A DNA stretch of 64,000 nucleotides, from NCBI RefSeq assembly GCF_013112485.1, contig NZ_JABFHG010000002.1:248001-312000 (forward strand), read 5' to 3'. Positions 21,928 to 43,925 of the stretch are shown here, piece by piece (positions within the stretch are counted from its first letter, which is position 1; each line of letters opens with the position of its first letter). The stretch comes from Roseicella sp. DB1501 (lineage in GTDB: Bacteria; Pseudomonadota; Alphaproteobacteria; Acetobacterales; Acetobacteraceae). The position numbers and the translations under genes were made by a program. The notes under the pieces were generated by a model, which did not search any database, was not told where the DNA came from, and saw only the letters and a program-made list of their open reading frames with translations.

Positions 21928-21930
21928 TGT

Positions 21931-21988
21931 AGAGCGGATCGCTGCGGAGCGTGAACGCCTGGACGCCTGAATCCGCTCCGGGAACAAC
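21931..21988 (+). repeat. dispersed intergenic repeat family A, copy A1 (first half only)
   Basis: A 58-base element, AGAGCGGATCGC to GGGAACAAC, with internal complementary ends GAGCGGAT (21932-21939) and ATCCGCTC (21971-21978). It matches the first half of the copies at 26343, 29973 and 36774 in the same orientation. It lies between the divergent pentapeptide and isomerase genes. Confidence 0.8.
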
Positions 21989-22084
21989 GATCTGCCGCGG
22001 AACGACGCTCAGCCGGGGCGCGATCCGTTGCGGAACGAAGGGTCAGCGGACCGGACCGGCAGGAAGGATAGGAGGTTGCGCATC

Positions 22085-25701: not shown

Positions 25702-26337
25702 ATGATGCTTCTGATCCAACGCCGCCTGCTGCTCGGCGCCGGCCTGGGACTGGCCTTCGCCGGACCGGCCCTGGCACAGCAGGATATCGGTCGCGCCGCC
25801 AGCTTCATCCAGGCCACCGGCCAGGAGCTGGTCGCGGCCATCAACGACACGCGGGCGGACCTGGCGACGCGCCGCCAGCGGGTGGCCGCCATCCTGCGGC
25901 GCGCCGTCGATATCGACGGCGTCGGCCGCTTCATCCTCGGCCGCTGGTGGCGCCAGGCCAGCCCGCAGCAGCAGCAGGACTACCTGAAGCTCTTCGAGGA
26001 GACGCTGATCCGCAACCTCTCGGCGCGCTTCGGCGAGTATCAGGGCGTGCGCTTCTCGCTCGGCCGCAGCCAGCAGCGCACCGAGGATGACGTGCTGGTG
26101 AACACCATCATCGAGCGGCCGAACAGCGCGCCCTTCGCGCTCGACTGGCGCGTCGGCGAGGTCAACGGCCAGCCGAAGGTGGTCGACGTCATCGCCGAGG
26201 GCACCTCGCTGCGGCTGACCCAGCGCAGCGAATACTCGGCCGTGATCCAGCAGAACAACGGCTCGGTCGACGCGCTGCTCGCGGCGATGCGCCGGCAGAT
26301 CCAGCAGCTTTCGGCGCGGGAGCAGGGCGGGCGCTGA
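25702..26337 (+). CDS. mlaC: MlaC-type periplasmic phospholipid-binding protein
   Basis: Periplasmic shuttle that carries phospholipid between the outer-membrane MlaA and the inner-membrane Mla transporter (Ttg2/MlaC family). It has 211 residues with a cleavable signal (LLLGAGLGLAFAGPALAQ). The conserved core is DIDGVGRFILGRWWRQASPQQQ, YLKLFEETLIRNL and WRVGEVNGQPKVVDVIAEG, then SLRLTQRSEYSAVI. ATG 25702 follows GGGAGAGA. It forms a pair with mlaA. Downstream is the hairpin of repeat copy A2, which may double as a transcript end. Confidence 0.92.
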   Translation: MMLLIQRRLLLGAGLGLAFAGPALAQQDIGRAASFIQATGQELVAAINDTRADLATRRQRVAAILRRAVDIDGVGRFILGRWWRQASPQQQQDYLKLFEETLIRNLSARFGEYQGVRFSLGRSQQRTEDDVLVNTIIERPNSAPFALDWRVGEVNGQPKVVDVIAEGTSLRLTQRSEYSAVIQQNNGSVDALLAAMRRQIQQLSAREQGGR

Positions 26338-26342
26338 CGGGA

Positions 26343-26443
26343 ACAGATCGCGGGAGGGCGTGAATGCCCGGACCGTGAATCCGCTCCGGAAACAACAGGC
26401 TACAGCGGATTGCCTCCAATCTTGAACGCAATCCGCTGTAGCC
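26343..26443 (+). repeat. dispersed intergenic repeat family A, copy A2 (both halves)
   Basis: About 100 bases matching copy A3. The first half runs from ACAGATCGCGGGAGGGCGTG to CCGCTCCGGAAACAACA. The second half is a perfect 16-bp inverted repeat, 26398-26413 (GGCTACAGCGGATTGC) and 26428-26443, with a 14-base loop. It lies six bases after mlaC. The hairpin could end mlaAC transcripts, although no T-run follows. Confidence 0.85.
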
Positions 26444-26585: not shown

Positions 26586-27599
26586 ATGCGCCGCCGCCAA
26601 GCCCTGTCCCTGCCTGTCCTGTCCCTGCCCGCCCTGCTGGGGGCGGGCGCGCTGCTGCCGCGGGCCGCCCGAGCCGCGGGTTTCCCCGACCACCCGATCA
26701 CCCTCGTCACCGGCTATGCCCCGGGCGGCAGCACGGACATCGCCGCCCGCATCCTGGCCGACCGCATGCCGATGCATCTCGGGCCGGAGGCGCGGATGCT
26801 GGTCGACAACCGCCCCGGCGCGGCCGGCGTCATCGCCACCGAATGGCTCATGCGCCAGCCGGCGGACGGCCACACGATCATGGTGACCGAGACCGGCGCC
26901 GCCGCCGCCGCGCCGGCCGCCTATATCGGCGGCACGCGCTACGACCCGGTGGCCGATTTCACGCAACTCGGCATCATCAGCACGCCGCCCGGCGTGCTGG
27001 TGGTGACGGAGCGCTTCCCCGGCCGCACCCCGCAGGAGGTGCTGCAGGCGCTGCGCACGGCGCCGCCGGACAAGCTGACCTATGCCAGCTCCGGCGTCGG
27101 CGGCGTGCTGCACCTCCGCGCCGAGATGCTCGCCCGCGCCTTCGGCACCCATTACGTCCATGTCCCCTATCGCAGCGGCGCCCAGATGCTGCAGGCGATC
27201 CTGACCGGGGAGGCGCAATTCGGCGTCGCCGCCCTCGCCTCCGCCACGCCGCTGATGCGCGACGGCAAGGTGCGCGGCATCGCCATGGTCGGCGACCGCC
27301 GCTTCCCGCTCTATCCCGACATCCCGACGCTCGGCGAGCTCGGCGTGCCGGGCTTCGACAATGGCGGCTTCTTCCTGCTGATCGGCCCGCGCGGCATGCC
27401 GGAGCCGGTCGCCCAGACGCTCAACCGGGCCTTGCGCGCGACGCTCGCCGAACCGGTGGTCCGCGACCGGCTGCTGACCGCGGGGCATGAGCCGCCGGCC
27501 GGGCCGAACGACCTCGCCACCGCCCGCGCCTTCATGCAGCGCGAGCTGGAGACCTATCGGGACATCGTCGAGCAGACTGGCATCCGGCTGCAGCCGTGA
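26586..27599 (+). CDS. Bug/TctC-family tripartite transporter binding protein
   Basis: A 337-residue periplasmic binding protein of the Bug (TctC) family, which binds carboxylates and similar small acids for tripartite tricarboxylate transporters. The signal peptide is about the first 30 residues. Family motifs are ITLVTGYAPGGSTDIAARIL, VDNRPGAAGVIATEWL, YASSGVGGVLHLRAEML and VHVPYRSGAQMLQAIL. No TctA/TctB membrane genes are adjacent, as is usual for Bug expansions in this bacterial group. Several hundred ligands are possible, so none is named. It is convergent with the acetyltransferase gene. Confidence 0.88.
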   Translation: MRRRQALSLPVLSLPALLGAGALLPRAARAAGFPDHPITLVTGYAPGGSTDIAARILADRMPMHLGPEARMLVDNRPGAAGVIATEWLMRQPADGHTIMVTETGAAAAAPAAYIGGTRYDPVADFTQLGIISTPPGVLVVTERFPGRTPQEVLQALRTAPPDKLTYASSGVGGVLHLRAEMLARAFGTHYVHVPYRSGAQMLQAILTGEAQFGVAALASATPLMRDGKVRGIAMVGDRRFPLYPDIPTLGELGVPGFDNGGFFLLIGPRGMPEPVAQTLNRALRATLAEPVVRDRLLTAGHEPPAGPNDLATARAFMQRELETYRDIVEQTGIRLQP

Positions 27600-29934: not shown

Positions 29935-29972
29935 GCGCTGAATCCTGGGGGCTTGGGGGTTGCGGGCTTTCT

Positions 29973-30022
29973 AGAGCAGATCGCCGCGGCGCGGAAACGC
30001 CCGGGGGCATGAATCTCCCCGG
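29973..30022 (+). repeat. dispersed intergenic repeat family A, copy A4 (first half, degenerate)
   Basis: AGAGCAGATCGCCGCGG and the following 33 bases match the first half of copies A1 to A3 in the same orientation, including the AACGCCCGG and TGAATC positions. The second hairpin is missing. It lies between ettA and the HNH gene. Confidence 0.65.
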
Positions 30023-30439: not shown

Positions 30440-31432
30440 TCAGCCGAGGGTGATGCCCGCCTCCCGGATCACCTGCTCGCAGAGGCCGCGTTGCGCCTCC
30501 AGCCAGCGGCGGAACTCGGCCGGCGAATTGCCCAGCATGATGGCGCCGGAGGCATCCATGCGCTGCCGCACCCCCGGGTCGCGGACGGCCTGCCCGATCA
30601 CCGCGGCCAGGCGGTCGATGATCGGCGCCGGCGTGCCGGCGGCGGCGAAGACGCCGTTCCAGTCGCTCAGGTCGAAGCCGGGGAAGCCGCTCTCGGCGAG
30701 GGTCGGGACATCCGGCAGGGTCGGCACCCGCTCGAGGCTGGTGACGGCGAGGATCCGCGCCTGCCCGGCCTGCACCGGCGGCCGGATGGAGTTGGTGGTG
30801 ATGATGACGGCATCGACCACCCCGGCGGCGATATCCCGTGCCGCATCGGCGCCGCCGCGATAGGGCGTGTGCACCAGCCGGATGCCGGCCTGCTTCTGAA
30901 AGGCCTCGCCGGCCAGATGCGCCATGCCCGCGGCGGGCGGCGTGCCGTAGCTGATGCTGCCCGGCCTCGCCCTGGCGAGGGCGATGAACTCCTGGATCGT
31001 CCGCGCCGGGAAGTCCCGCTTCACCGCGATCACCTGCGGGAAGAGGCAGAATTGCGAGACCGGGACGAAAGCGGTGCGGTAGTCGAAGCCGAGATCCTTC
31101 ATCAGGGCGGGATTGGTGAGCTGGTTCGCGGCATCGACGAGGAAGGTGTAGCCGTCATGCGGCGATTGCAGCGTGGCATTGGCCGCGATCACCGCATTGC
31201 CGCCGGTGCGGTTCTCGATCACCACGGACTGGCCGAGGATCTCCCCCATCTTCTGCCCGCAGGTGCGGGCAGCGGTATCCGCAGCGCCGCCGGCGGCGAA
31301 GGCGACGATCAGCCGCAACGGCCGGTTCGGCCAATCGTCCTTTCCTTGGGCTTCTCTGTTCTGGGCCCGGGCGTGGAGAGCGGACGAGGCCAGCGCCAGG
31401 CCGAGCGCCGCCCGGCGTCCGAGGCGGATCAC
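30440..31432 (-). CDS. Bug/TctC-family binding protein, coupled to leuD
   Basis: A 330-residue periplasmic carboxylate-type binding protein with a signal sequence (LGRRAALGLALASSALHARAQ). Family motifs are LRLIVAFAAGGAADTAARTC, VIENRTGGNAVIAANATL, YGTPPAAGMAHLAGEAFQ and VHTPYRGGADAARDIAAG. Its GTG start (31432) overlaps the leuD stop as GTGA, so its translation is coupled to the isomerase subunit. That ties an uptake receptor to the enzymes upstream and suggests the ligand is their substrate or a precursor. This link is inference. No TctAB genes are near. Confidence 0.88.
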   Translation of the reverse strand: MIRLGRRAALGLALASSALHARAQNREAQGKDDWPNRPLRLIVAFAAGGAADTAARTCGQKMGEILGQSVVIENRTGGNAVIAANATLQSPHDGYTFLVDAANQLTNPALMKDLGFDYRTAFVPVSQFCLFPQVIAVKRDFPARTIQEFIALARARPGSISYGTPPAAGMAHLAGEAFQKQAGIRLVHTPYRGGADAARDIAAGVVDAVIITTNSIRPPVQAGQARILAVTSLERVPTLPDVPTLAESGFPGFDLSDWNGVFAAAGTPAPIIDRLAAVIGQAVRDPGVRQRMDASGAIMLGNSPAEFRRWLEAQRGLCEQVIREAGITLG

Positions 31433-36631: not shown

Positions 36632-36773
36632 CTCCGTCGTTTGGGCGCCGGACTTTGGCCGTGCGACGGCCGTCTGTCACGCTGCCGCGATGCCGTCGTC
36701 GCGCGATGCCGAGGATGCCTCAGCATTCGGCAATTCTGCATGCGTGGTCACAGTTTTTTCTGGCATGCAACCC

Positions 36774-36892
36774 AGAGCAGATCGCGGGAGGGCATGAACG
36801 CCCAGACGTGTGACTCTGCTCTGAAAACAAAAGGCTACAGCGGAATGCGTTCAAGATTGGACGCAATCCGCTGCAGGGCCGCGATCCGCTCT
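36774..36892 (+). repeat. dispersed intergenic repeat family A, copy A3 (complete, with terminal inverted repeats)
   Basis: The most complete copy, 119 bases. Its ends are imperfect terminal inverted repeats, AGAGCAGATCGCGG (36774-36787) and CCGCGATCCGCTCT (36879-36892), matching at 13 of 14 positions. Inside are AGAGCAGA paired with TCTGCTCT (36815-36822), the palindromic GGGCATGAACGCCC, and a second hairpin with arms 36835-36850 and 36861-36876 (14 of 16 paired). Its right end contributes two bases of the TAG stop of the neighbouring Bug gene. The form is that of a small MITE-like or REP-like element. Confidence 0.85.
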
Positions 36893-37847
36893 AATCGTTC
36901 GGCCGCAGCCCGGCATCGCGGACGACCTTGATCCACCGCTCGCGGTCCGTGCGCGCCGTCGCGGTCAGGACCTCCGGCCCGCCCCAGGCCGCCTCGGCGC
37001 CGAGGCCGAGCAGGCGTCGGCGTAGTTCTTCATCCGCCAGCACCCCCTCCAAGGCCGCGACCAGCCGGCCTTGCTGCGCCGCCGCCAGGGCGGCGGGCGC
37101 GAACAGGCCGAACCAGGTCTCGACCACGAACCCTGGCACGCCGGCCTCCACCGCCGTCGGCAGGTCCGGCGCCAGCGGCGTGCGCGCGGCCCCGGTCGTT
37201 GCGAGGGCGCGCGCTGATCCCGATGCGACATTCGGCAGCGCGGTCAGGGGCGGGTCGAAGAGCGCGTGCACATCGCCGCGTCGCAGCTCGGCATAGACGC
37301 CGCCGGTGCCGCGATAGGGCACATGCACCATCCCGGCGCCGGTGAGGAGGTTGAACAGCTCGCCGGTGAGATGCGGGATGGTGCCGGTGCCGGAGGAGCC
37401 GAAATTCACCCGGCCGGGATTGGCCCGCGCCCAGGCGACGAACTGCGTCAGCCCCTCGGCCGGCACGGCCGGCGCGACCAGCACCAGATTCGGGCTCTTG
37501 GCGAGCAGCGCGATGGGCGTGAAATCCCGCTCGGGATCGTAGGGCAGATGCGTCTGCAGCGCCGGCCCGGTCGAATGCGTGCTGTTGGTGGTGAAGAGCA
37601 GCGTCAGCCCGTCCGGCGCGGCGCGCATGACATGCTCGGTGGCCGGCACGCCGCCGCCGCCCGGCCGGTTGTCGACGACCACCGGCTGCTCCAGCCGGGC
37701 GGCCAGCAAGGGCGCCATCAGCCGCGCCAGCGCATCGGTCGGTCCGCCGGCCGGAAAGGGCAGGACCAGCCGCACCGGCCGGGAAGCCTGGGCCAGGGCG
37801 GGACAGGGCGCGAGCAGGCCGGCCTGCAGCAATTGGCGACGACGCAT
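36891..37847 (-). CDS. Bug/TctC-family binding protein, downstream of nhaA
   Basis: A 318-residue periplasmic Bug-type receptor. A short signal (LLQAGLLAPCPALAQA) is followed by VRLVLPFPAGGPTDALARLM, VVDNRPGGGGVPATEHVM, FGSSGTGTIPHLTGELFN and VHVPYRGTGGVYAELRRG. The gene starts 10 bases after the nhaA stop with GAGGAGGG between them, so the two are co-transcribed, an odd pairing. Its TAG stop overlaps the end of repeat copy A3, so the repeat insertion or decay may have set the C-terminus (GLRPND). Ligand unknown. Confidence 0.87.
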   Translation of the reverse strand: MRRRQLLQAGLLAPCPALAQASRPVRLVLPFPAGGPTDALARLMAPLLAARLEQPVVVDNRPGGGGVPATEHVMRAAPDGLTLLFTTNSTHSTGPALQTHLPYDPERDFTPIALLAKSPNLVLVAPAVPAEGLTQFVAWARANPGRVNFGSSGTGTIPHLTGELFNLLTGAGMVHVPYRGTGGVYAELRRGDVHALFDPPLTALPNVASGSARALATTGAARTPLAPDLPTAVEAGVPGFVVETWFGLFAPAALAAAQQGRLVAALEGVLADEELRRRLLGLGAEAAWGGPEVLTATARTDRERWIKVVRDAGLRPND

Positions 37848-39072: not shown

Positions 39073-39477
39073 CGCTGATCCTTGGATAAGTTGAGGAGGG
39101 CAAGGCAAGAGCTAGAGCGTGATCGCTTGAGGTGGAGTCACCGAAAAGCGTGAATCACGCGATCAAACAATGGCCTGGACCATGATCCGCGACCCTGCGT
39201 GAGCGGATCATGGTCCAGGGCCTTTGAGCACGGACCCGCGGCCGCGGTCCACGGCCCCTCCCCCGCCTTGCGGCGCATGCGCATGGGCGTCGACTCTTGA
39301 TCAGCCTCTGCCATCCGCTTCCGAACCGGACCCGTTCCAGCCCGGCTGCCCCCGGTCCCCTACCCGCGCCGCGCAGGGGTAGGGCGGCTGGCGGCCGGGC
39401 CGCGACGCCGGCAGCATGCGGTGCCGCGGCGCCAGGCCCCCGAAGGCGGCGGGTCTGCGCTCGGGGGAGGAACGGGA
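39073..39477. other. 405-base divergent intergenic region carrying repeat B1
   Basis: This region separates nhaA and the amidohydrolase gene, which are transcribed away from each other. It holds repeat copy B1 (39114-39219) and probably both promoters. The stretch 39230-39470 shows no gene or motif beyond the amidohydrolase ribosome site (GGGGGAGGAACGGGA). Confidence 0.5.
39114..39219 (+). repeat. dispersed intergenic repeat family B, copy B1
   Basis: A core of about 55 bases beginning AGAGCGTGATCGCTTGAGGT and ending ACGCGATCAAACAATGG is followed by a perfect 17-bp inverted repeat, 39174-39190 and 39203-39219, with a 12-base loop. Because both flanking genes read outward, the hairpin is not a terminator for either. 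Copies B2 and B3 share the core in the opposite orientation. Confidence 0.85.
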
Positions 39478-43592: not shown

Positions 43593-43925
43593 CAGGGGCT
43601 CCCGCGGACGTCTTTCCCGAGACCATGATCCGTTCAACTGAGTTCACGGACCATGGTCTCGGTCGTTGTTTGATCGCGTGGGTCTCGCCTCCGGTGAGTC
43701 CACCTCGGGCGATCACACTCCAGCCAGCCTATCGCCGAACGCGGCCCGGCGAAGCCCCCATCCACAGACCCTTCGGGCGGCATTTCGTTGCATTGCGGCC
43801 ACGGCGTCGCAGCAACCTCCCGCAGTGGCATGAAAAACCTTCCCTTTCGCGCGATGGTGCAGCAGCGTCCTCCCTGGCGTCGCGACGTGAGGGGCACGAT
43901 TCGCGGTGGTCGGGGGATGCTTGTC
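43593..43925. other. 333-base divergent intergenic region carrying repeat B2
   Basis: This region lies between the outward-reading GST and TM2 genes. Repeat copy B2 fills 43618-43721. The remaining 200 bases show no motif I can support. An open frame on the minus strand spans the repeat but has no coding character. Confidence 0.5.
43618..43721 (-). repeat. dispersed intergenic repeat family B, copy B2
   Basis: Inverted relative to B1. The hairpin arms are 43618-43633 and 43646-43661 (15 of 16 paired) with a 12-base loop, the same loop length as B1. The core follows at 43666-43721 and contains TTGTTTGATCGCGTG and GGTGAGTCCACCTC. Architecture and core match B1 although the arm sequences have drifted together, a sign that base pairing is maintained. 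Confidence 0.85.

Follow-up and report, generated by a model that had tools for sequence, protein, structure and literature searches.

The window analysed here is a stretch of 64,000 nucleotides from the genome of Roseicella sp. DB1501 (G000; 5.99 Mb in 47 contigs). Three genes encoding TctC, a tripartite tricarboxylate receptor of which the genus has many, lie within 11 kb in this stretch (26586-27599, 30440-31432 and 36891-37847). Next to the last of them is the fullest copy of a repeat made of two hairpins separated by a linker (36772-36876, + strand; 107.5 bits with R1, a covariance model built from 25 copies of this genome, this one included). Hairpin 1 (AGAGCAGA ... TCTGCTCT; 36774-36822, +), delimited by sequence and minimum-energy fold, carries in its 3' arm a GANTC site (GACTC, 36812-36816, +), the N of which falls in an unpaired column of the model. 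It is followed by the linker GAAAACAAAAGG (36823-36834, +), identified by sequence and alignment, and by hairpin 2 (CTACAGCGG ... CCGCTGCAG; 36835-36876, +), identified by sequence and fold. Beside this copy lies a remnant of an inverted module, CCGCGATCCGCTCT (36879-36892, -). According to the sequence, the ORF list and the Pfam match to TctC, this remnant supplies the stop codon of the neighboring TctC gene (36891-37847, -): the CTA at 36891-36893 is its TAG. The preliminary description had drawn the element up to 36892 and had credited it with terminal inverted repeats identical at 13 of 14 positions. This match involves the adjoining partial inverted module, the element itself ending at 36876. 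Since a similar extension beyond the element end was seen by eye at 2 of 30 loci, the 13/14 repeat is not the end of the family.

Three other sites of the window had been presented as copies in the same orientation. One full-length copy (26338-26441, +; 94.5 bits, also used to build R1) is located directly 3' of the stop codon of mlaC (26335-26337), and the perfect 16-bp stem ascribed to it is real. Another copy (21929-22033, +; 68.3 bits, also used to build R1) is flanked by a UvrD-like gene (-) on one side and a DsbA-like gene (+) on the other. It had been described as a first half, but it is full length with a worn second half. The last site (29971-30022, +) is probably a degraded half copy, as proposed: it consists of CTAG and part of hairpin 1, its left end being an exact TAGAGCAGATCGC (G000:C12:277972), and R1 makes no call there at E<=0.1. 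Independent BLAST comparisons within the window gave E values of ~3e-24 (36774 and 26343 sites), 2e-9 (21931 and 26343) and 4e-5 (21931 and 36774), versus best matches of 1e-4 to 0.015 in five windows shuffled by a first-order Markov model. The relationship of three of the four sites is therefore beyond chance (BLAST versus shuffles), but BLAST alone gives no significant support for the 29973 site (E of 0.6 to 3 against the other copies). Folding gave z-scores of about -6.6 for the stretch 36774-36892 and for the 26343 copy; the sites at 21929 and 29973 fold no better than their shuffled versions. The statement that all copies lie between genes was imprecise, since the 26338 copy abuts mlaC at its stop codon and a TctC gene owes its own stop codon to the remnant next to the 36772 copy. 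The window also harbors a related repeat, hereafter element B, which has the same architecture (CTAG-hairpin-AAACAATGG-hairpin-CCAG) and was delimited by eye from weak R1 matches. Its better copy (39112-39218, +; 30.4 bits) has a GANTC of its own and the second one (43618-43722, -; 22.5 bits, E 0.085) is more worn. The linker of element B reads AAACAATGG or AAACAACGA.

Alignment of 25 copies from the DB1501 genome gave a consensus of 106 bases for a repeat unit of about 105 bases, in the order hairpin 1, linker, hairpin 2, with TAG at the ends. The consensus opens with CTAG-AGC and closes with GTAG, its linker is GAAAACAACAGG, the inner part of hairpin 1 is GGGC-loop-GCCC and its fold has a z-score of -8.05. 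Among 94 aligned copies from several genera, 93.5% of the stem cells are paired. No Rfam family matches the element at the gathering score, the window giving only a tRNA. The repeat is abundant, as had been anticipated from the window. R1 has 111 matches in the DB1501 genome at E<=0.1, counting the copies used to build it as well as echoes of hairpin 2 on the reverse strand. The fullest copy gives 64 BLAST matches in this genome at E<=1, some of which are reverse-strand echoes of the palindrome, and the 13-base left end is found with at most one mismatch at 175 sites, versus 28 for the same sequence read backwards. The same kind of search with a 15-base left end in genome G090 found 159 sites versus 1 for the backwards control.

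The covariance-model search also found copies in related genomes. All five Roseicella genomes carry the element, with 22 to at least 66 matches each at E<=0.001. Within Acetobacteraceae, 29 of 249 genomes, from 19 of 102 genera, match R1 at E<=1e-6; up to 15 candidates were scored per genome in this survey, so its match counts per genome are 'at least' figures. Among 337 genomes drawn across the class, two match at E<=1e-4: that of DB1501 itself and G298, which falls outside Acetobacteraceae and has eight copies bounded by (T/C)TAG and CTAA. Hence, the distribution of the element is patchy. At E<=0.01, neither the consensus nor element B had a match in the plasmid collection; the consensus had none in the phage collection either. 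Two of the G298 copies (L313 and L314) have identical 30-base flanks on each side, suggesting that they probably result from a segmental duplication rather than from two insertions.

Several observations demonstrate that the element is mobile, which was one of the options considered in the preliminary description. In G090, four copies of 107 bp are byte-identical and have different left flanks, two of the four sharing a right-hand repeat; a fifth copy of 107 bp differs from them only at its outermost base. Furthermore, an empty site was found for the 26338 copy: R. frigidaeris lacks about 103 bp at the mlaC stop codon (BLAST alignment of 1004 columns, 86% identity). At this junction, GG replaces the left TA of the copy and there is a difference of about 3 bp from R. 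frigidaeris, which prevents a direct reading of the duplication. Likewise, at G000:C12:220391, R. frigidaeris has neither the element nor the adjoining element B, the short spacer aligning poorly. The element is also modular, as had been suspected, its units being chained at CTAG junctions. Tandem copies in G001 and G002 (L157, L158 and L183) follow one another with a period of 102 bp and have one TAG in common. A separate array (G000:C12:61241-61535) is made of a 63-base unit that comprises only hairpin 1 and the linker. In G090, this hairpin 1-linker module is inserted within the internal CTAG of element B at 2 of the 13 loci viewed, element B being uninterrupted at this point in nine. Five loci of G090 (L206, L207, L257, L261 and L268) carry another repeat, starting with TGTCCTGCCCGC, directly after the closing CTAG of the element.

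Junctions were analyzed on 72 hand-picked copies, mostly scoring at least 84 bits among 163 matches, after removal of duplicates; a few copies such as L050 and L056 were left out and two tandem copies were added. No flanking repeat extending beyond TA was found in this set (best z of 2.2 over 2023 offset combinations), TA itself being present at most ends. Hairpin 1 is preceded by CTAG in 44 of the 72 copies and by GTAG in five, and the right end is GTAG in 56. The outermost bases thus differ between the two sides, being mostly CTAG on the left versus GTAG on the right in Roseicella and T/CTAG versus CTAA in G298. This systematic difference indicates that any target duplication is at most TA.

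The paired and arrayed palindromes, together with the GTAG right ends, recall REP or BIME sequences mobilized by a REP-associated tyrosine transposase (RAYT), and a REP-like nature had been put forward initially. However, GTAG rarely precedes hairpin 1, and no Y1_Tnp match was found in four of the five Roseicella genomes (G000-G003), including that of DB1501 and the copy-rich one of R. aerolata, two matches being found in G004. Mobilization by a RAYT is therefore very improbable.

In our opinion, the repeat is most probably a non-autonomous MITE-like element with the architecture of CIR repeats, which inserts at the TA of YTAR sites and is moved in trans. Insertion would occur at the TA of YTAR, mostly CTAG, and TA would most likely be duplicated, giving N-TA-[GAGC...GCTC or GCTG]-TA-R, the exact TA duplication being inferred. 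New copies or single-hairpin modules would land in the CTAG of older copies, generating tandem arrays and mosaics. Against this insertion model, recombination between units bounded by CTAG could also account for the module swaps. Transposition would presumably be catalyzed in trans by a TA-targeting transposase of the IS630/Tc1-mariner type or of the IS5 type. IS5-type transposases that target TA or CTAG are known. According to the text consulted of PMC2170065, IS630/Tc1-mariner transposases as a rule insert at TA and duplicate it, and the title of a paper cited there indicates that IS630 prefers TA within CTAG.

The search for a full-length parent transposon found no autonomous element with matching ends. 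For instance, no TA-flanked inverted repeats of 14 bases with at most three mismatches were found around the four IS630-type transposase loci of the DB1501 genome, and no IS630 parent sharing the ends of the element was identified. IS630-type transposases are not significantly more common in genomes with the element (23 of 29) than in the others (144 of 220; p=0.15), and none was detected in G086 and G153, which have many copies. In R. aerolata, the right end of an insertion sequence (L225-L239 and L152) has 17 full-length matches, all including the terminal CTA. By eye, one of its frames resembles the C terminus of an IS630 transposase and the end itself is unlike that of the element. Five of the 16 copies of this IS630-like sequence that were viewed abut the left CTAG of the element (p ~0.001 on the assumption that left ends of the element account for about 70 CTAGs out of an estimated total of 1380, both figures being rough extrapolations). 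Insertion sequences also seem to use the left CTAG as a landing pad. Two other repeated contig ends (L149, L151, L153 and L154) stop exactly at the CTAG of the element, indicating that assembly contigs break there.

The ends of the element are associated with stop codons, an association that is new here. Among the ends that bear TAG, 54 of 159 are the stop codon of a coding-like ORF, i.e. an ORF of at least 100 codons whose G+C by codon position is that of this genome, versus 12 of 158 background CTAG contexts (p=5e-9); the element ends come from more genera than the background, and in Roseicella alone the left TAG is a stop codon in 18 of 44 cases. The background CTAGs were counted on both strands over 308 kb from three Roseicella genomes, the few that belong to the element included. 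Left ends carry TAG in 115 of 138 copies and form a stop codon in 43 of these 115, versus 44 of 138 and 11 of 44, respectively, for right ends. Excluded from this main tally of 138 copies were most of those that were partial, duplicated, in tandem or at contig ends, most of the weak matches, and also the two copies of G108, three of G025 and four of the eight of G298; earlier tallies, including one of 78 copies, relied on slightly different sets. We rejected the hypothesis that the element truncates genes. A Pfam scan of 20 of the 43 ORFs that end at a left TAG, which include genes for an Obg-like GTPase and a DnaJ-like protein, found a domain in 19 of them, the remaining one having no Pfam match. 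The domain ends at most 20 residues from the C terminus in 12 ORFs; the seven others have tails of 29 to 157 residues, which are little informative.

The excess of gene ends on the left side could be viewed as the mark of an RNA element, i.e. an mRNA stabilizer, terminator or processing site located in a fixed direction after stop codons, and an RNA processing signal had been listed among the options. The folds of the good copies are very stable (z about -6.5). In the 94 aligned copies, 99 stem cells show changes on both sides versus 28 in shuffles, in an alignment that is itself fitted to the structure, and the signal is weaker in the 25 copies of the DB1501 genome (14 versus 7.6). Moreover, G-U is found at one stem pair in 85 of the 94 copies, and one-sided changes yield G-U more often than A-C (114 versus 83, not counting the two pairs that are most often G-U). 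However, this excess comes from pairs 9-48, 78-146 and 3-53, and the counts become 66 versus 74 when these are excluded post hoc. No run of T was seen by eye after the stems. The direction bias depends on TAG rather than on transcription. In Roseicella and G211, where only 1 of 76 right ends carries TAG, all 26 stop-forming ends are left ones. Conversely, the bias disappears in G090, G164 and G025/G153, where most ends carry TAG on both sides: stop codons are formed by nine left and ten right ends (10 and 11 in an earlier tally). When the exact stop-codon copies are set aside, gene ends are near the left side in 20 and near the right side in 17 of 78 copies. An RNA function is therefore not clearly supported, and we consider it quite improbable.

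Since the orientation bias tracks which ends carry TAG, it is best explained by the survival of insertions that keep the stop codon. As the first base of the body is G, an insertion of the MITE-like element into the TA of a stop codon would leave an in-frame TAG at the end of the gene. Such insertions would do little harm and would therefore accumulate. This rule can explain the crowding of such repeats at gene ends without any host function, and its prediction, an orientation bias set by the ends that bear TAG, agrees with what is observed here. A more specific proposal is that stop codons are a safe harbour used as landing sites, the YTAR target and the first base of the element guaranteeing a retained TAG stop codon in one orientation, or in both where both ends carry TAG. 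We regard this proposal as tentative and rather doubtful. If gene ends were actively targeted, this way of choosing a target would be new among bacterial MITEs. Full-text searches limited to papers available without subscription showed no publication on this family or on landing at stop codons among the results viewed.

The GANTC of hairpin 1 could point to another role. It is found in the 3' arm in 85 of the 94 aligned copies (GAATC in 72, GACTC in 12 and GAGTC in one, the variable N lying in the unpaired column), whereas stretches of genome contain such a site about once per 1000 bp. In the larger tally, which spans nine genome groups, 120 of 138 copies have it at this place; all four G298 copies counted, which are from outside the family, are among them. 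The presence of the methylase CcrM in Roseicella is assumed from what is generally known of the class. The element might be useful to its host, either GANTC sites methylated through the cell cycle or the hairpins serving chromosome or gene regulation. The conservation of the site in place with a varying N, as well as the occurrence of GANTC in CIR repeats (consulted part of PMC2229807), are consistent with such a role. However, the GANTC columns (0.96-0.99) are not clearly above many other stem columns. Furthermore, the copies are patchy among genomes, present or absent between congeners and often worn. We saw no evidence of a beneficial function for the host in this dataset and hold this explanation to be unlikely. 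The best reading is still a MITE-like parasite with a CIR-like build.

Elements of similar size and build have been described in other bacteria. The primary paper on CIR repeats is reportedly that of Chen and Shapiro in 2003. RIME1, the Rhizobium-specific intergenic mosaic element (Osteras 1995), is said to be an intergenic mosaic repeat of about 100 bp with two palindromes; going by this description rather than by sequence, it is similar to our element in size, in its two palindromes and in its mosaic intergenic nature. CIR repeats occur in Caulobacter, Brucella and other alphaproteobacteria, as described by Delihas 2007 (PMC2229807). The passages available from this source describe elements of about 110 bp, with two inverted-repeat arms and a linker, a conserved GANTC and 5'-TA-3' termini, located between genes, all of which are shared with our element. 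However, in CIR repeats GANTC is at or in a terminal loop of one arm (PMC2229807, in part), whereas the element described here has it within the stem of its first arm, at columns 43-47 of the alignment, the N being unpaired. Since the position of GANTC differs and the comparison is made by description and not by sequence, we call the element CIR-like and not a CIR. The same passages mark the target site duplication of CIR as unknown and say that their mobility needs more information (PMC2229807), whereas an empty site, CTAG junctions and landing at stop codons were observed here. The CIR-like family, with its identical copies, empty site and CTAG junctions, is thus a tractable case for the question of CIR mobility.

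Two other families were compared. RUP elements of pneumococcus, in the parts consulted of PMC3049150, PMC2229807 and PMC10969869, are 107 bp long, have TA-containing insertion sites, are proposed to be moved in trans by IS630 and bunch with other repeats, like our element, for which an IS630-type transposase is one candidate. Unlike the latter, for which no matching parent was found, RUP has inverted repeats that match those of IS630-Spn1, and these parts of the three sources mention neither landing at stop codons nor GANTC for RUP (PMC3049150, PMC2229807, PMC10969869). MITEPsy1 of Pseudomonas syringae is 100 bp long and inserts after CTAG or YTAA, but it generates a four-base duplication and has 18-bp inverted repeats, whereas any duplication is at most TA here; the source lists MITEPsy1 as 'IS5?', with ISPsy2 as its supposed origin (excerpts of PMC3189936).

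The stop codon of mlaC carries the element not only in DB1501 but also in Paracraurococcus sp. LOR1-02 and Caldovatus aquaticus (weak R1 matches of 25 bits, recognized by eye), and a different hairpin element is located at this place in Belnapia arida. The MlaC protein encoded next to the 26338 copy has matches in Dankookia, Paracraurococcus, Roseicella and further Acetobacteraceae. Other hairpin elements with CGATCAG/CTGATCG-like stems lie at or near the mlaC stop codon at L096 (from about 6157), L090 and L091. The one at L096 has the linker AAACCAAACAG and ends with GCTCTAG. They probably represent additional families of the same kind.
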